Source: Diaporthe sp. PMI_573
Taxonomy: Eukaryota; Ascomycota; Sordariomycetes; Diaporthales; Diaporthaceae
Direction of reading: 5' to 3'
DNA length: 64,000 bases
Assembly (NCBI GenBank): GCA_021399435.1
Contig: JAJTUP010000038.1
Coordinates: 1-64,000 of the forward strand
Shown here: in pieces, positions 3,501-27,100 of the stretch
Layout of the letters: each line of letters starts with the position of its first letter
Position numbering within the stretch: the first letter of the stretch is position 1
Program-made: the position numbers and the translations under genes
The notes under the pieces: model-generated
Database searches by the model: none
The model's input: only the letters and a program-made list of their open reading frames with translations
Told to the model about the DNA's origin: nothing

Positions 3501-4881
3501 CCTCAATAATAAAGTCCTGCATGGTCCAGGCCCAGTCCCAGTGGATCTGGGCGGCCGTCTTGCAGTTCACGAAGACAAGGTGGCTGGTGGTGAACTGCTG
3601 GTTGCCGAAGTAGGCCCCGAAGTTGCCGCCTACAAAGGTCAAGTCTGCCAGAAAGCCGCCTGAGCCGTTCTCCATGTAGATACCCTGCTGCGTGCTGTGC
3701 GGCACGTCAGAGCTGTACTGCATGTAGAACTCGATGTTCTCAAGCGACGACGCCTGCGCGACCTGCCAGTGGATGGCGCAGACATAGGCCCACGGGTCTG
3801 TCAGGCGAATATCAATCTTGAAGTTCTTGATGCTACGGAGGAAGTTGGCCGTGTTGAGATACCAGCCCACGTTGTCGTCAATATACTTGTTGGAAGTGAA
3901 GACGCCGAGCCCGACGAAGCTGGACGCAGCCAGGATGGTGGGAACGTTGATTGGCTCGGGAAAGTCAGCAGGAGCCTCTCTCAATTTGATGCTACTTGGG
4001 ACTTACATCACCGAGAAACTGGGTGTTATAGTACTGGATGATAGATCCGCTGACGAGGTAGGTTCCCGGAGGAAAGTAGACGACGGCCGGAGAAATGGTG
4101 CTCGTCTTGCACTGTTCTCCACAACGAGCACCGTCTGAGATGGCCTTGTTGATGGCCACTGTGTCATCTGTTTACCATCGCCCTTGGCGCCGAAATCCTT
4201 TACGTTGCGCCAAACCTTGTAGCCCGACGGTGAGAAAGGACTCTGGCCGGGGAACTTTTGGTCATCAATAAGCCAGTAGCCGGAGGCGCGCTTCTCATGG
4301 GTTCCGTCGCCGGCGAAGACTGATAGGCGGCCTTCGGGAGCCTGCAGCTCCTCGGCGGCGTTGGTGTCGTTGAGAAAGCTGGGGGTATATTTCTTGCGGA
4401 TCTGGGCCGCAACCTCCTCGTGGTCACCCACGGGGATCTGCGGAGTCGACTCGGCAACGGCTGCGGCCGCCTCGACGAGCTCCTGGGGGATCCGGTAGCT
4501 GCCAATGACAGTCGTGTTCTTGCTGCTCCGCTGAGAGCTCCCATCACTCTGCCTGCGGAACATGGTGGCGATGGAACTGGGCTCGGCCTCGTAGGCGAGC
4601 AGTGGAGCTGGCTTGTACTCCTGCTCCGGGTCCTCGAGTTTCATCTCGTTGAAGACAGGGTTCTCGACGCGGTTTTGGTTGACCACGGCAAGGACCTTGA
4701 GCGCCTTCTCGACGAGCTCCTGGGCGTTGAAGCTGGTGCTGTTCACGGGGCGTTCGACGACATCGCGTACGCTGCCGCCGCTGCTGGGCGCGATCGCCGC
4801 GAGGGTGGCATGGGCAAAAAAGACAAGGAGAAGTGAAGATTTCAGGACGCCATAGGCCCCGGAAAACGAGGCGGGACGCAT
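567..4881 (-). CDS. Secreted GH55 (beta-1,3-glucanase-like) and LysM fusion protein, broken by a 1-nt frameshift
   Basis: Exons by splice signals: 4881-4007, 3954-2694, 2632-1550, 1456-567; the three introns each have a GT donor and an AG acceptor. If the frame were intact the protein would be about 1370 residues: signal peptide (1-32), a disordered stretch, two pectate-lyase-3 / GH55 beta-helix halves (motifs KDFGAKGDG and RALGAKGDGKTDDT), and C-terminal LysM modules (W/YHV openings, paired cysteines, NP motifs). GH55 enzymes are exo-beta-1,3-glucanases; LysM binds chitin. The ATG at 4881 is preferred over 4929 because it starts directly at a good secretion signal. At 4171-4173 one A is missing from a run: the conserved TDDT continuation of GAKGDGK lies in another frame immediately afterwards, so as read the product stops at 4003, before the first intron, at about 292 residues. 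This is either a real lesion or a homopolymer sequencing error. It is divergent from the chitinase at 5832. Confidence 0.85.
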
Positions 4882-5831
4882 TGCGTCGATAGCCAAAGAG
4901 TCAAAGATGATGAATTTGGACTTTCGCAACTGCGCCTGGACGAGAGACTTTTCGAGGTGAGAAGGGGCCGCAAGAGCGAGTATAAGACAGGACGGAGAGG
5001 GTCGTCATAAGACCCTGATGGGATTACCAACTATGGGGATGGATGAGTCGCGAGGCCGAACATTTGCCTATCTAGGTAGGTATATCCTCGGTGAAAGACC
5101 GCAAATGTCGGTCGAAGGAGCTCAGCTGAGAATATCTAATTACCGCGTGCGCATTGCCAAGATGAACTTATCCAAACCAAATGTTTTGATTTTCTCAGGA
5201 ACTTGCAGTCAGTCTTCACTCTCCCAAACTTGTTTAATTAGTACCCACATGTTGGAAGCAGAATGTCTGCGCCAGAAAAATCCTACCTGTAGCCGTTGGT
5301 CGGTAGAGACTGAAAGTATTCGTTGAAGGCTCTCAGCCAAAAACGTCCAATTACCGCACACAATGCCAAGATGGACTTAACCGGATAATTGTGTTTTCTC
5401 TTCCCTAAAGAGCTTTCAGTCAGCCTTGAACCAACAGTCTTCTTTAATGAGTGCCCAGCTTTTGGGATCCGACGTCTCGCGCTAGAGGGATTCAGCCCGA
5501 AGCTATCGTGACTGTTGGTAGGATGGGCAGCCTTGGCACCCCTGCTGTGCCGCAGGCGCCAGATGAGATGGTACTGGATTCGGTCGGCCAAGAGGGCGTC
5601 TCCAAGCGCCGAAAGCCGCGACGACAGCAACGCACGACTTTTTCACGATAGAGTGGGATGGAGGAGATGATGATAAACACGTAGTTCGTCCTCCCTCTGC
5701 TCTTCTCCTCGCCTTGGGATGACACGACTGTCCTTGCGATTCACTTGCACGGCGCGCAACACTGGCACTCTCTTCCCGACCTTTGTCTCTCTCTTCTTCA
5801 TTCGCTCTCTTGGATTCCAGATTCTCGCACC
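4882..5831. promoter_or_regulatory. Shared divergent promoter region of the GH55-LysM and chitinase genes
   Basis: About 950 bases separate the two divergent start codons. No gene is seen. The stretch just before the chitinase ATG is pyrimidine-rich (CTCTCTTCTTC type), as is common before fungal start codons. The middle contains a diverged tandem duplication (separate entry). The head-to-head layout suggests co-regulation; this is inference. Confidence 0.5.
5110..5500. repeat. Diverged tandem duplication in the shared promoter
   Basis: Two units of roughly 170 bases (about 5115-5290 and 5320-5495) share ordered blocks: AATTACCGC, GCCAAGATG, ACTTA, TTTTCTC, CAGTCAG and TTTAAT.AGT. Spacing is similar and many substitutions separate them, so the duplication is old. 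Exact borders were judged by eye. Confidence 0.55.
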
Positions 5832-10474: not shown

Positions 10475-11571
10475 CTGAAGGTTGGTGGATCGAATGGGAG
10501 TCAGGTAGCAGTAGGGTGCACTGAGGTCTTGTTGGGACGCTTGAGAATGGTTTGGACAACTTTGCATTGAATTCGAGTGGGCTTCTGTCAGCCCTCCTCA
10601 CAGTCCCTCCGACATGACCTCAACCCTGGGCACGCTGCGGTTGGCTCTGGTGCAGGAATGGAGGGGCCGGAAAATTCGGCCCTCAGACCCACCATCTTTG
10701 GCTTCAAACAGCCAGCCAACCCTAACCCTGACAGTAACCAGACTAAATACAGATAAACTTCAGAAATCAGGCTATCTAACAAACTAGGTTACATGCTTTT
10801 TGGGTAAGAAATAAGGGGAATGCAGAGGTTCGAAGTTAGGGTCTTAAAACAGCCCAAAAAATCGGCTCACGGCCACCAAACTCATCTGCCGGCGCGCACG
10901 CCACATAGGCACTTAGCCGAAAAAGTGCCAAGTCTAGGGTAACTCCCTACGTGAAGTCTAGGGTAACCCCTTACGTGCAGCGCCCACACAAGCGTTTCCG
11001 TTTAACATATATTATTTATATAAAAAGGATTTTTAAAAGAACTATAATATCTTTGTTAAACGGAAACGCTTATTAAGGCGCTGCACGTAGGGAGTTACCC
11101 TAGACTTGGCACTAGATTTTCTCTATGTGCCTACGTGGCGTGCGCGGCGAAAGATGAGTTTAGTGGCCGTGAGTCGATTTTTTAGGCTGTTTTAAGACCC
11201 TAACTTCGTACCTCTGTATTGCCCTTATTTCTTACCCAAAAAGTATATAACCTAGTTTATTAGATAGCCTGATTTCTGAAGTTTATCTGTATTTAGTTTG
11301 GTTACTGTCAGGGTTAGGGTTGGCTGGTTATTTAAAGCCAACGATAGTCGGTCTGAGGGCCGAATTTTCCGGCCTCCCTATCTGCGCACCAGAGCCAACC
11401 CACGCGTGCCCACGGGTGAGATGATGTCGGAGGGACTGTGAGGAGGGCTGACAGAAGCCTACTTAAATTCAATGTAAAGTTGTCCGAACCACTCTTAATC
11501 GTCCCAACTTGTCTCCAGACACCCTGCTGCGACCCTGCCAAACACACACTGCTGAAGGCACTATCCTTCAG
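10475..11571. repeat. Large imperfect inverted repeat (foldback/MITE-like element)
   Basis: The left arm, about 10475-11006, is the reverse complement of the right arm, about 11055-11571. A 48-base AT-rich spacer separates them. The innermost 17 bases (10990-11006 and 11055-11071) match perfectly. Outward the arms keep long blocks, including GGCGCTGCACGTA, GCCACGTAGGCAC, TTTCTTACCCAAAAAG, CAGGGTTAGGGTTGGCTG and CGGAGGGACTGTGAGGAGGG, with scattered transitions and small indels. No transposase is present and I could not define a target-site duplication. It is probably a non-autonomous transposon or two inverted copies of one; similarity fades outward beyond the CTGAAGG/CCTTCAG ends. Confidence 0.8.
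10931..10978. repeat. 24-bp direct repeat, two copies, inside the left arm
   Basis: Two adjacent 24-base units (10931-10954 and 10955-10978), each starting AGTCTAGGGTAAC, differ at a few positions. The right arm has only one copy, so this duplication arose after the arms formed or was lost on one side. Confidence 0.75.
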
Positions 11572-21146: not shown

Positions 21147-21216
21147 GAAGACAAGCTTGCGGAGGAGAGAAGATGAAGCTGGAAGACAAGCTCGCGGAGG
21201 AGAGAAGATGAAGCTG
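21147..21216. repeat. 35-bp tandem duplication upstream of the AlkB-like gene
   Basis: Two adjacent 35-base units (21147-21181 and 21182-21216) differ at one base. They lie just upstream of the TATA box and could duplicate a regulatory site. Near identity indicates a recent event. Confidence 0.9.
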
Positions 21217-22612
21217 GAAGTCTCTGGATTGACAGTCCCCTCGATGGATCAAAACCAAGAGCTGGCTCGAAGGCAGGTAGCGCTAGGTATTTGCTGGTCT
21301 TGCGATGCGCCCCCATCAACGCACGAGCCACCATCAACCAACCACCTTGTGAGCCTCCTGTGACAGACTTGGTCTTACGTCACTAGCACTTTGCAATGAA
21401 TGTCTCTCCCAGGGATCGGACGAAGACCAGTGATTAAGAATTGTACAGAAGCAGTCCAGAGCCCCAAACATGGGCAGCTTTCGATCCAGAACACTGGCCA
21501 TTGTCACCATTCTTGGACTGAGGGACTATGTGGAGAACCTTGGGATACGTTTTGAAAGTAATCCGTTAGGTATGAGGTTTCAAGCAATGGAGATACTCTA
21601 GATGCGTCGCCACAGGATGTCAAATATGCCTTGATGAGGTCTCAGTGTCTGAGGAAGATGGCAAACATTTGAATTGGGCCAACTCTCTGACTATGAGCTA
21701 TGAATCTTGTGCGCTATGCATTCTATTCATGTACAGAATCATTATGGTCTCTTATAGTACAGTAATTCAGGCAATGGGAGGAGTATACAGTCCACATTAT
21801 GGATCATTTGATCCAGCTTGGCATCATAGGCTGCAAGAGGTGCCAGTTGGATACACACCAAGCAGTCTGAACCAAAGATACTAGGTTATCTGGAACACGG
21901 ATGATGTTCCGAGCTTGTTAGACTTGTGTTAGTTGTAACAAATCTGTATTGCATCCATATTAGAAGATGAGAATAACCCGACTAGAATGCTAGAGGTTGG
22001 CACGAAGGCTGATTCTCATCATGGAGGAGTTGCGAGGGTTGTGTTCCAGTTTTCCCGGAAGAGCGGTGAAAATAGATAGATACTCAATATCTATAGTTTA
22101 GAGATAGAGAGATAGAGAGGGTATAAAAGGTAGGGTGGCCTTTTGCTTATTAAGAGAAGTACTTTAAAGTCTTGGGGGTGTATATACATACCATTAGGAC
22201 TGGGTGGGCAGATAGAGAAGAGCTGGGTGGGCCCACCTCGGCTGCTTGCCAGGGAGAGTGGCACTGACGATATCTCTTGATGCCAAGGCGACGGCGGGCT
22301 ACTGAGTACAACAACGGCGTGAAAATAAACCGACTGCTCACCATGCAGGTGTCGGTCTTGGAATATGCACGACTTATTATTCCAATCTTGGAAAGTTTCG
22401 TCTTCACTTTTCAACCTCTGCATCTTGTCCAACTAATGGATGAATGAGTGTCGGACAAATTACGTCAGTCTCGCAGCTCAGCTCGTCGCATCAGACCTGC
22501 ACATCCCCCTTCGGGAAATATTAGACGACACTATCGTTTGGGTTGCTGGTGCACTCACTTTACGGTCATTATCTTCCAGTAAAGAAGTATCTTGCTCAAT
22601 GGGCCTTTTCTG
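21217..22612. other. Gene-free AT-rich interval
   Basis: About 1.4 kb of AT-rich DNA between the two divergent genes. I see no supported coding sequence, RNA gene or clear repeat. Confidence 0.5.
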
Positions 22613-22620
22613 TATAAATA
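22613..22620 (+). promoter_or_regulatory. TATA box of the Hint-nuclease gene
   Basis: TATAAATA lies 150 bases before the ATG at 22770. It argues that the upstream in-frame ATG at 22440 is not the real start. Confidence 0.5.
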
Positions 22621-22769
22621 TTGAGGCATCGTCTGTGGAAACCGACACCGTCCTCGTTGCTGATGTGTGCATAGATGTGCCCGCTGAGGTTTCCCCATCA
22701 TCTGCTATTATCCACACCTGCTATACACATTGGTCCATCCCCCAATCCAACTTTTTGTTGATTTCAATC

Positions 22770-25085
22770 ATGGCTGAGTCTGCCGATGTGCGTATTGCTT
22801 CCAAGCGAGCCTATTACGATAACAACAAGCCATATAAGGAGTTCGAGACTATCACCCTGTACATCTACAATGCCGGCCCTGATCGAGCTGTGGCTCCTAC
22901 CGTGAAGGCCGGCTACTCCTATTCTATGAACTATGACCAAGTCACCACTACCCTCCGTCAGACACAGGAGTGGGGTCAACCATCTGAAGCCATCACCATT
23001 CCTGGGTCTCTGACTTGGGCCGATCTGCCCAATCCATCCAGTCACTACGAGGGATGGGACATGGTGACCACTCTACCTGATGTTCCGGCCGGCACACTCA
23101 TGGAGCTCAACTTGTCGTTCCCTATGCTGCAAGAGTCGTCCAATACCGATTATACGATGAATGCGTCGGTCTCGTCCTCCACCGACGATCCGCGGCCGGG
23201 TAATAACTCAACGACATATATCATCACCCCCAACCACCACGACGACGGTCCAGGTTACTGGAACACTCCTGGCGAACTCGCCAACCTGGACTTTGAGGGC
23301 TTGACTGCCGTTGTGCCACTCTCGCAGGCAGATCTGCGGGTTGCCTCGGCCCGGGCCTACTACAACAACGACTTACCCTCTGGGCAGAGCGAGACGTTGA
23401 CGTTCTTCGTTTTCAACGCTGGACCAACCATTGCTACCCAGCCTCTCCTAAAGGCGGGCTATACGTGGTCGATGGACTACAACAAGGTGTCCTGCCACGG
23501 TGCTCAGGTATGGGTGCCTGATGGTACCAATCCTTCGCCGAGTCTAGACGTCTACGAGTGGCAGCCCCTGGGTGATTTGAGCTGCCGTATTGCGGACTGG
23601 GATGTCATCTGCTCCATTCCCAACATCCCGCCCAGCGTCTTATATCGTATCGAGATTGTTTTCCCGATGGCCAATAAAACTTCATACAAGGATTATATTG
23701 CCACCGCGTCGGTCTCCTCTGACGCTGCGATCCTCAATCCCGACAGCACTTCCACGACGTACATCATCACCCCCAATCATGACAACGATGGTGACGACTA
23801 CTGGAAGACCCCAGGGAACATCGCGCAGCTGGACAATGCCTCCACCCCGTCTGGGAGTTGCAAGTGCTTGACTGGCTGGGAGCTCGATGTCCCGGTCGTC
23901 GTGTCAGACAGCAACGGGCGCCGGCAGATCCCGCTGGGCGAACTGGAGGGAGAGATCACCAAGACGCAGCTTATGAGCTACGACCTCGCACACAGGACTT
24001 TGTTGCCCAAGATGGCCACCGACGTCGAATACGGCACATCGTCGGAATACACCGTCGTGTCCTTCTCCACAGACGGAAAGACGCAGCTGTCCTACCGCGC
24101 CCACCCGGACACGATGCTGTACCTGTATCCCCAGACCGTCAAGGTAGGCCAGGACCAGCTACGCATCGGCTACTGGCTCCCCGTTCGGATGCTCTGGGTG
24201 GGTGCCAAGGTGAGGGGGATGAGCGCCTCTGGCTTCGAGACGGAAGTATATGTGACCAACATCCATCAGGCCAAGGGGGCGGAGATCCGCAGCGCCGAGC
24301 CGCACATGGTGAGCCAGAGCCACAGCTACGTGGTCGGGACCGCAGCCGCGGGCGGCGTCCTCGCGCACAACCCGAAGGACGACCAGCGCTGCGGGAACGC
24401 CAACGTCGCCGCCATGACGCTCGCCTTCATGATGATCGCGAGCAACCTGGTATCGACGCCGGCGCCCGACGACCCGAATCAACCGCACGGCTACAGCCTC
24501 CGGTACAGGCGCGATACAGACCCGCCCCTGCCGCCGCCCCCCGCCGCGCCGCCCATCCTGCCCGCCGACGTGCCCCGGCGGGACGAAGACGGCAACTGGC
24601 TGATCTACCTATACGAGGAAGACACCCCGGGGGCGGTGGAGAACGCCCGCTTCGCGGTGAACGAGGTGAACCACCCGTGGCAGCTCACCTACGACCCCAG
24701 GGGCGCGCCGGCCCGGCGGTCCCAGTCCACGGGCCAGTACCCGGCGCAGAGTGAGCTCCTCCAGCTCACCAGCCAGGAGCTCGGGGGCGGTTCCGGCGGC
24801 ACCGGCCAGCTCGACCGCGACGAGTACCCGCCGGCCATCGCTCGCGAGGGGGGTGCCGGCGCCGTCGTCACGTACATCGAGGCAGGGGACAACCGCAGGG
24901 CCGGTAGCCTGATGGGCCAGCAGTTCAACAACTACCGGATGGACCCGCAGCCCGACGGCCATCGGCCGCTCCAGCAGGGGGACACGTTCCGGTATGCTAT
25001 CATCCACAGGAATATGGCCGGCGTCGAGTACCTTGGAGACGACCTCAGTACCGAGTCGCAGATTGAGCGCCCACCTTCAGACTGA
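22770..25085 (+). CDS. Polymorphic-toxin-like protein: tandem beta domains, Hint domain, NucA/NucB-like nuclease
   Basis: Intronless, about 771 residues from the ATG at 22770 (context CAATCATGG, after a TATA box); an in-frame ATG at 22440 would add 110 unrelated residues. Residues 5-174 and 187-355 are a tandem repeat (AD.R.AS.RAYYNN, NAGP, KAGY..SM.Y, TTYIITPNH, YW.TPG) resembling CARDB/DUF11-type beta-sandwiches. Residues 362-534 look like a Hint autoprocessing domain: cysteines at 364/366, a SYDL segment, an AHP motif (H446), and the end signature SHSYVVG...GGVLAHN. After a Pro-rich linker, residues 650-745 resemble NucA/NucB DNases (DEYPPA, EGG, DNRR, GQQFNNYR, GD.F). Bacterial toxins use Hint to release a C-terminal nuclease; that role here is inference. 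No signal peptide or membrane segment is obvious. No adjacent immunity gene is evident. The 3' half is more GC-rich than the 5' half. Confidence 0.78.
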   Translation: MAESADVRIASKRAYYDNNKPYKEFETITLYIYNAGPDRAVAPTVKAGYSYSMNYDQVTTTLRQTQEWGQPSEAITIPGSLTWADLPNPSSHYEGWDMVTTLPDVPAGTLMELNLSFPMLQESSNTDYTMNASVSSSTDDPRPGNNSTTYIITPNHHDDGPGYWNTPGELANLDFEGLTAVVPLSQADLRVASARAYYNNDLPSGQSETLTFFVFNAGPTIATQPLLKAGYTWSMDYNKVSCHGAQVWVPDGTNPSPSLDVYEWQPLGDLSCRIADWDVICSIPNIPPSVLYRIEIVFPMANKTSYKDYIATASVSSDAAILNPDSTSTTYIITPNHDNDGDDYWKTPGNIAQLDNASTPSGSCKCLTGWELDVPVVVSDSNGRRQIPLGELEGEITKTQLMSYDLAHRTLLPKMATDVEYGTSSEYTVVSFSTDGKTQLSYRAHPDTMLYLYPQTVKVGQDQLRIGYWLPVRMLWVGAKVRGMSASGFETEVYVTNIHQAKGAEIRSAEPHMVSQSHSYVVGTAAAGGVLAHNPKDDQRCGNANVAAMTLAFMMIASNLVSTPAPDDPNQPHGYSLRYRRDTDPPLPPPPAAPPILPADVPRRDEDGNWLIYLYEEDTPGAVENARFAVNEVNHPWQLTYDPRGAPARRSQSTGQYPAQSELLQLTSQELGGGSGGTGQLDRDEYPPAIAREGGAGAVVTYIEAGDNRRAGSLMGQQFNNYRMDPQPDGHRPLQQGDTFRYAIIHRNMAGVEYLGDDLSTESQIERPPSD

Positions 25086-26112
25086 CCGACAGCCCTGAGT
25101 TGTTGGTTACCAGTCACCGTTCTGCGATCTTGTATGCAAGCAATCACACACTAGCTAAAGTTTCCCATGTTTCTGTCATGAATGCATGCGCCGTCTTGTC
25201 AAAATTACCTAGACTTGAAGACACAAAGAACTGTGAGAATTTTGAGAGTATCCTTGATTGGAAATTCTAGATTGATTAGATTGTGTGTCTCCAAACGTCT
25301 CTCTCTTGGAGAATAATTGACTCGAAAAACTCTCATATCGGGGCTGCTTCAGGATTGTAGTCGAGGGTCGTTATTCTATTACTGTCTCCCAATAATATCA
25401 CTGTCTTTACTGGCTGCGTTGTTTCCTAGAAACAAAGCATTGTATTCTTTCACAGCCACTTTTGTCTCTCACTTAATGACAAAACGGAAGCCCTTATGCA
25501 ATTAAGAAACTTTCAGAGGTTTTGATTCTACCTAGAGATAGGGCATTACTACTGTAACAATACAGCACTTATATACTGCTTGGTATTTCCAATATTGATT
25601 AGAAATTCTCGTCTTTTACCCAAGAGGTGGAATTTACTAGCAGTAAAATCTTAAACCCATCTTCATTTCTAATCACACAGCTAGGGTTCGAGCACTTTGG
25701 TTGGAAAATCATTCTAGCATCGCGGTAATCCTAGTCATGTATGTTGTCCAAGTTACAGTCTTTACAGTATTTAAGGTGTGGAAAGCCTCCATTTAACCAA
25801 CAGCTGAGAAGTAGATGTTTATAAGCGATAGCCTGACCACAAATTTCCCCTAGCCCTACACAAGTAATCCGTCTTACTCGATGTGAGATCTTAAATTGAT
25901 GCCTTGCTTCCAGACCCAACCCCCTGCAGTAGTAGCCAGGCAGCAGTGTAGAACCGAGGGTCTGGGACTCAAATTCGCCCCACACTGCATACTGGTCTCA
26001 ATTCCTCTCAATGCCACAAAAATCTCAAAGATTTCGGTCTTTAAAAAGCCCCAGAATTTGTGGTTTGTTGTCTCACTCTTCCGCCTCCTTGATACTATCG
26101 CCCACGATCAGC
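25086..26112. other. Gene-free AT-rich interval
   Basis: About 1 kb between two same-strand genes. Short unrelated frames only; no gene or structured element is supported. Confidence 0.5.
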
Positions 26113-27100
26113 ATGGCCTTTCCGGATTGGCTCAGGATGTGAGTTGCTGCCTCGTGTTACACGCTCTTCACTCCAGCTTCAGCATTCTAACTCAGCCGTG
26201 TCCGTATCTCAGTGTGCTCCTGGTGCTTAGTTTCGCATCATTCCTGCCTCAGCTCCAACTACTATGGCTGCGGCGAGACAGCTCGGGCATCAGCCTTTGC
26301 TATGTTCTTTTCAGCCTCGTGGTCGCGACCGAGCTATTCACCATCGACCTGTCCATCCTCACGAGCGCGGAGGGAGGCGAAATCTTTGTGCACTCGCCAG
26401 CCTCGACCGGCGACTGGTTAAATCTCGCTCAGTTTGGAACCGTCTGGTTAATGTGGGCACTGATGTACGTCAACCCCAGGTGCCTTCGTCCGGATTGGAC
26501 AGAAACAAGACTTCCCCCGTTGTTAGATGGCAAACCGCTGACTCTCCTCTCAGCTTCACTGCCTGCATCGTGTTCTACCCTCGTGATCGACCTTACACTG
26601 TGCCTGCGATCGTCTCTACCATCTACACAGGTTACCTCCTCATCTCCCTGGTGCCTCTGATTGTCGTCCCAGCCAGCACGGGCCCTGAAGAGGACCGCAA
26701 GTGGTTCGATGGTCTCTTCACCGGCTTCCACATCATCATCTTGAACCCACTCATCACCATCCTTGGGGTCGCCTCTCTATACCCACAAGCCCGTACGATC
26801 CTGGGGCGTCCTAGCGATTCAGGTCATGGTGCACTGAGTCTCGTGGGTCTCGCGGTGCAGGCAGTGCTGTTCTTGCTTCTAGGCTTGACATGGCCCGGTC
26901 GCTTGGCGTGGCCTGGTCCGATGTTTCGTAGGGCGTTTTCCAGCTGGTTCCAGATGGTCGGGTATGTGGCATTTGACTATATCATTTTTGCTGTCGTGCA
27001 GGCTGTGTTATTATCCATAGCTGTACGGCACAGTGGACGGCGTGTGAGGGTTGACGACGAACGAGTTGAAACTGCTAGTGAGAGAGACCCGCTGCTTTAA
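26113..27100 (+). CDS. PQ-loop-type seven-helix membrane protein
   Basis: Three exons, 26113-26138, 26213-26464 and 26554-27100 (274 residues). Introns have donors GTGAGT and GTACGT and branches TCTAAC and CGCTGAC. The first acceptor was chosen at 26212 because it restores frame and leaves a sensible branch distance. The first helix pair carries SFLPQLQLLWLRRDSSGIS, the PQ-loop signature. Six or seven hydrophobic segments follow, with a basic/acidic cytosolic tail ending ERDPLL. PQ-loop proteins include lysosomal/vacuolar amino-acid exporters and sugar carriers; the ERDPLL end could be an acidic dileucine sorting signal to vacuole or endosome. Substrate unknown. The very short first exon makes the start less certain. 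Confidence 0.75.

Follow-up and report, generated by a model that had tools for sequence, protein, structure and literature searches.

Tandem repeats, a Hint-like domain and a NucA/NucB nuclease in one protein of the fungus Diaporthe sp. PMI_573

The gene and its domains

We analysed the first 64,000 nucleotides of contig JAJTUP010000038.1 of Diaporthe sp. PMI_573 (hereafter the window), in which a forward-strand coding sequence at 22770..25085 specifies a protein of 771 amino acids (P0001). Translation of this open reading frame (ORF) gives, from N- to C-terminus, two repeats, a Hint-like domain, a hydrophobic stretch, a proline-rich linker and a NucA/NucB nuclease, collinear with a 724-residue protein (P0003) of the actinobacterium Streptosporangium nondiastaticum. 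The initial annotation described the ORF as intronless, and this agrees with 771 open codons followed by a stop, with the absence of a GT[AG]NGT donor motif within 22370-22780, and with an alignment of P0001 to P0003 that gives no sign of a retained intron. A TATAAA element at 22613..22618, about 155 nucleotides 5' of the start codon, is a possible core promoter by consensus match. All features of the gene described here lie on the forward strand.

The tandem repeats, put at about 165 residues in the initial annotation, are two units of about 170 residues that share 71 of 167 aligned residues. Repeat 1 (residues 5-174; 22782..23291) is of DUF11 type, scoring 25.8 bits in Pfam against a cut-off of 24.6 when scanned alone; repeat 2 (residues 186-355; 23325..23834) has no Pfam match when scanned alone, and P0001 as a whole scores 22.8 bits for DUF11, below the cut-off. 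Identity to P0003 is 64/185 in the stretch holding repeat 1, aligned with the P0003 repeat, and 65/209 in that holding repeat 2. Repeat 1 presumably adopts a beta-sandwich fold. No Pfam match to RHS or haemagglutinin central repeats is present in P0001, the DUF11-type repeats standing in that place instead.

The presence of a C-terminal NucA/NucB domain (residues 600-760; 24567..25049), proposed in the initial annotation, is well supported by sequence comparison and structure prediction, and the domain may have DNase activity. The Pfam NucA/NucB score (PF14040) is 23.8 bits, exactly at the cut-off of 23.8, a PDB sequence search returns NucB with an E-value of 1.7e-7, and the nuclease part of the structure model is confident and matches 5omt in Foldseek (E 2.6e-7, TM score 0.84 by target). 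The motifs DRDEYP (682-687), EGG (693-695) and DNRR (707-710) lie where that annotation had placed them. By alignment, D684-E685 (24819..24824) correspond to D93 and E94 of BlNucB, and N708 (24891..24893) to the metal ligand N117, so that these three active-site residues are retained. Changes at the equivalents of these three residues in B. subtilis NucB leave no significant activity, according to the portion of the published study on which we draw (PMC5758888). The two cysteines of Bacillus-type rows are absent from P0001, as they are from the copy in a Rahnella VENN toxin.

A Hint-like domain (residues 362-534; 23853..24371) is indicated by profile comparisons; its structure models are of low confidence and were superposed on inteins and Hedgehog. 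When P0001 and P0003 are combined into one profile and compared with 17 actinobacterial PT-HINTs using hhalign, the probability is 95.6 and the score 55.7, the best of 100 column shuffles reaching 22.1; P0003 alone gives 67.8%. In an hmmsearch with a Hint profile, P0001 alone scores 7.2 bits, slightly above the highest reported shuffle at 5.3 (500 shuffles per sequence, of which 400 and 354 were reported). The two proteins are about 23% identical in this region. A PDB sequence search with the pair returns nothing at an E-value of 10, and a profile dominated by canonical Hints does find inteins there, a result that says nothing about P0001. Searching the whole fungal genome with PT-HINT gives 0 matches, but the same search also misses the Hint-like region of P0001 itself.

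The sequence motifs of this domain also lie where they had been reported: C364, C366, AHP (444-446), SHSYVVG (517-523) and GGVLAHN (528-534). Block names here are those used for Hint domains, position 1 is counted as for Cys1 of Hedgehog, and Asn cyclisation is the chemistry considered for C-terminal cleavage. The position-1 region comprises C364, C366 and G369 (23859..23876). H445-P446 (24102..24107) contains a candidate block-B His with no match in P0003, and H518 (24321..24323), a block-F-type His, aligns with H397 of P0003. H533-N534 (24366..24371), the predicted C-terminal cleavage pair, precedes P535 and is invariant in 10 aligned rows. Just C-terminal to the domain lies the most hydrophobic 19-mer of P0001 (residues 544-562; 24399..24455), a helix of low confidence in the model and an Ala-rich stretch in P0003, followed by the proline-rich linker (residues 563-599; 24456..24566), delimited by alignment with P0003.

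Relatives, known systems and chromosomal setting

The best relative of P0001 is the S. nondiastaticum protein (NZ_PXWG01000001; locus L052, 3627-5801), with an E-value of 3e-42 as against 4e-12 for the next. It was found in a scan of contigs of at least 3 kb from 84,980 prokaryotic species with a nuclease pattern, which gave 144 stretches and 109 relatives, 80 of which were kept; ORFs were viewed in 31 of these 80 loci, and the rest were covered by Hint-motif or Hint-profile scans. P0003 shares with P0001 a DUF11-type repeat, a Hint-like region ending in HN (as VHN in P0003), a hydrophobic or Ala-rich stretch, a Pro-rich linker and the nuclease, in which 82 of 161 residues (51%) are identical. 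It differs from P0001 in its hydrophobic, signal-type N-terminus, its single repeat, the retention of a supporting His (His484), the lack of an HP aligned to H445-P446, and a C-terminal extension of some 118 residues that matches no Pfam family.

The complete order of repeat, Hint-like domain and NucA/NucB looks rare among prokaryotic contigs and the genomes of the class and genus. It was not seen beyond L052 in the 80 kept loci, where not every ORF was viewed in full. Whole-protein searches matched only the S. nondiastaticum genome itself among 394 genomes of the class (two candidates scored per genome) and among 101 of the genus. A search with the nuclease part matched 11 of 297 genomes of the family, at 1.1e-98 for its own genome and 9.7e-13 or weaker for the ten others. 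A pattern-based scan for close relatives of P0001 residues 362-771 gave 18 stretches and no relative. In plasmids and phages, tblastn matches to P0001 were confined to the nuclease end, from residue 605 on, with no record at 80% coverage, and P0003 had no match in plasmids at an E-value of 0.01. Viral contigs contain 38 nuclease loci, and the [VA]HN motif is absent from the 28 viral-contig ORFs inspected. As to exchange of tips on a common stalk, only two members with a DUF11-type stalk were seen, both tipped with NucA/NucB, in a search that was made with the nuclease. At one further locus (L059) a Hint match (4438-4896) and a NucA/NucB match (5001-5274) lie close together; the ORF from the start of the match lacks the nuclease motif, and the reading seems interrupted.

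Among known systems, the RHS/PT-HINT/NucA-NucB (Tox-ComI) toxins at L080, L101, L112 and L106 resemble P0001 in placing a Hint-type domain directly before a C-terminal NucA/NucB domain. They differ in having RHS repeats, a Hint domain that reaches the Pfam cut-off and Ser at Hint position 1 in all four; RHS and PT-HINT exceed their cut-offs in 4/4, and NucA/NucB is detected by Pfam at an E-value of 1e-5 in two and by tblastn in the other two. Bacillus NucB (PDB 5omt) shares the fold and the D/E/N active-site residues, but it is a small secreted enzyme (PMC5758888) that keeps the supporting His and has neither Hint domain nor repeats. The fungal chimerolectin toxin CCTX2 (PMC13324453) is likewise a multi-domain fungal protein of toxin-like layout, although the part of that source consulted names neither NucA nor a Hint domain. 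As for side observations on the same family, a Rahnella plasmid encodes a VENN pre-toxin with NucA/NucB (L009, 3470-4888) followed by a gene annotated SMI1/KNR4, a possible immunity partner. The fungus itself has four further NucA/NucB matches (L003 on C79, L004 on C190, L006 on C187 and L007 on C147), two of them over the cut-off. L003 and L004, which exceed it, and L006, which falls below, match the same Pfam family as P0001 but have another core motif by eye and are unmatched by the whole-protein search; inspection by eye shows L004 with a hydrophobic N-terminus and a CDEWPPA core in place of DRDEYP.

In the sections of Zhang et al. 2012 (PMC3482391) on which we rely, the NucA-type domain Tox-ComI is listed in ascomycete and basidiomycete fungi and together with HINT and RHS, so the parts were already known to the field. 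The initial annotation had judged the order of domains to be undescribed in fungi. Our literature search found no paper on the repeat-Hint-NucA/NucB architecture in fungi; the order itself recurs in the bacterial P0003. None of the papers surveyed described the DUF11-type stalk variant, its occurrence at full length on a fungal chromosome, or the absence of signal peptide and supporting His together with the probable loss of the position-1 nucleophile.

The host contig (C150) has 716,852 bases and is part of an 83.7 Mb assembly. Pfam scans of 10 window ORFs identify fungal-type neighbours on both flanks, with a Fungal_trans transcription-factor domain, DUF7924 and an NPHP3_N/GPIID_WHD protein. 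The GC content of both gene flanks is about 0.37-0.49, unlike the bacterial make-up of L052. A whole-protein search of the fungal genome with P0001 returns no further match better than an E-value of 0.37. No Rfam match at gathering scores occurs anywhere in the window, and PADLOC and NCBIfam searches gave no match. Directly 5' of the likely start, the forward frame at 22440-22769 is open for 110 codons (25 of 5000 base shuffles are free of stops); it looks non-coding because its GC content is flat across codon positions (0.48, 0.44, 0.48). The downstream neighbour (25896-27100, forward strand) appears by eye to contain hydrophobic stretches, and its PQ-loop match is weak and falls short of the cut-off. 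About 31 kb from the P0001 gene, 55994-57292 (reverse strand) encodes the NPHP3_N protein, a fungal gene of the NOD-like receptor (NLR) type that also matches GPIID_WHD and, at a score under the cut-off, NACHT. Two telomere-like matches with one mismatch each lie at 10720-11319 near a 24-base tandem repeat (two matches in 0 of 100 shuffles), and a tandem repeat with a 35-base unit (2.1 copies, 97% matches) occupies 21147-21220.

Origin and alternative explanations

The gene was most likely acquired from bacteria, namely from an actinomycete; this is the likelier direction of transfer, judged from searches of prokaryotes. The same domain order in the actinobacterial P0003 indicates such a transfer. 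GC content at third codon positions (GC3) rises along the gene, from 0.63 and 0.70 for the two repeats to 0.86 for the Hint region, 0.92 for the linker and 0.87 for the nuclease, compared with 0.91-0.92 in three parts of the P0003 gene and 0.50-0.83 in eight other window ORFs. In a nuclease tree of 123 rows, P0001 and P0003 pair at 100 in the SH-aLRT branch test, with actinobacterial rows nearest; the stem is long and 57 of 119 inner branches are open. The rows were those of loci L009-L144 whose DRDE[YWF]P motif is preceded by 45 residues or more, with L052 as its own row; the NucA/NucB loci of the fungus itself, L008, L074 and duplicates (L001, L005, L132-L134) were left out, so that P0001 is the sole fungal row. 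The high GC3 of the 3' half and the lack of a visible intron in the fungal copy, the bacterial character of the Hint and NucA/NucB pairing, and the actinobacterial neighbours in the tree all speak against transfer from fungus to actinomycete within a mainly fungal family. That direction, for which one might cite the single carrier among the prokaryotes searched and the position of fungal proteomes outside the search, we regard as quite unlikely. An assembly artefact or bacterial contamination of the contig is very improbable: the 3' half is indeed GC-rich, but fungal-type genes lie on both sides, the flanks lack a bacterial make-up, and GC3 of the N-terminal half is within the range of the neighbours.

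We lean, on balance, towards P0001 being a captured actinobacterial gene for a secreted protein of polymorphic-toxin type, which has gained a second repeat by duplication, has lost the signal peptide and possibly frees its nuclease by Asn cyclisation. Polymorphic toxins place a processing domain ahead of a toxin-type domain at the C-terminus, and P0001 has this arrangement, the processing domain by way of the pair with P0003. Several observations weigh against this account. The initial annotation saw no obvious signal peptide, and we find none: by hydropathy, the measure used here in place of a signal-peptide program, the best 12-mer of residues 1-60 scores 0.5 as against 2.5 in P0003, and no upstream exon with a signal peptide was found 5' of the gene. 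The Hint call of that annotation holds for the pair but not for P0001 alone, which in hhalign against the 17 PT-HINTs gives 4.6% and a score of 21.6, at shuffle level and not significant; neither P0001 nor P0003 matches PT-HINT (PF07591) at the Pfam cut-off. Position 1, which is Ser or Cys in 17/17 canonical Hint rows, maps to Gly369 by superposition of the low-confidence P0001 models on inteins and Hedgehog, and is Gly242 in P0003. The proposal that Cys364 or Cys366 serves as nucleophile is thus doubtful, although C366 could still occupy position 1 if three residues were inserted, given a CxC[F/L] pattern like that of 2 of the 17 canonical Hints; among the residues expected to be conserved, H533-N534 persists and the position-1 Cys is replaced in P0003. 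Because this nucleophile is doubtful in P0001 and absent in P0003, only cleavage at the C-terminal His-Asn is plausible. Finally, N625 (24642..24644) occupies by alignment the column of the supporting His, where all 13 remaining rows of a 14-row alignment have His. By pattern this His is present in 75 of 79 bacterial loci; of the remaining four, L072 shows it by eye and three were apparently read in the wrong frame or place. Replacement of the corresponding His47 of B. subtilis NucB (BlNucB H53) by Ala leaves no significant activity, again as given in the accessible part of PMC5758888.

These losses would also suit a domesticated, catalytically weakened relic kept for repeat-mediated binding, in which Hint cleavage and nuclease activity are irrelevant, and Zhang et al. 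2012 (PMC3482391) describe an animal protein, Od-Oz/teneurin, that derives from a toxin domain and is catalytically inactive. We consider such a relic a real though less probable alternative, as the frame is open over 771 codons, D684, E685, N708, H518, H533 and N534 are all retained, and the nuclease region keeps its 51% identity to P0003. Rather improbable is an ordinary extracellular nuclease that scavenges or clears DNA, comparable to NucB of Bacillus or to the other NucA/NucB proteins of the fungus, in which the Hint region would be no more than a spacer. The signal-type N-terminus of P0003, the further loci in the genome and the hydrophobic N-terminus of L004 are in line with it, but P0001 has no such N-terminus, lacks the Bacillus-type cysteine pair and differs from the own-genome copies in its DRDEYP core and in whole-protein search.

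Proposed working and meaning

For the captured-toxin account that we favour, the sequence of events may be pictured as follows. A filamentous fungus would have taken up an actinomycete gene for a DUF11-type stalk or adhesive domain, a Hint-like domain, a hydrophobic stretch, a Pro-rich linker and a NucA/NucB (Tox-ComI) endonuclease. Stalk duplication and loss of the signal peptide may have occurred in the fungal lineage or in an unsampled donor. The Hint-like domain would skip the reaction of a position-1 Cys or Ser; the block-F His, the penultimate His and Asn534 could then promote cyclisation, breaking the chain after N534. The fragment so freed, of about 237 residues with the hydrophobic stretch and the nuclease, might cut DNA using D684, E685 and N708, perhaps in antagonism or defence; the initial annotation had named competition and allorecognition as further possible roles.

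A variant that we think improbable, though somewhat less so than the extracellular nuclease, has the captured toxin used inside fungal cells: as it lacks a signal peptide, the nuclease, gated by the Hint-like domain, would stay tethered to its adhesive repeats until Asn534 cyclises, as a self-contained effector of defence, cell death or incompatibility. Such an effector would need no immunity protein because its activity would be low (N625) and gated. No ComJ inhibitor is found in the fungal genome, and known immunity families have no match in four bacterial neighbours of P0003, in one downstream fungal stretch or in the 10 window ORFs.

If transfer and self-cleavage are both true, an entire bacterial toxin architecture, beyond a single toxin domain, would reside in a fungal nuclear genome. 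P0001 would then be a test case for whether a Hint domain without a position-1 nucleophile can still release its C-terminal partner, and would offer one defined protein for studying how eukaryotes tame gated bacterial nucleases.
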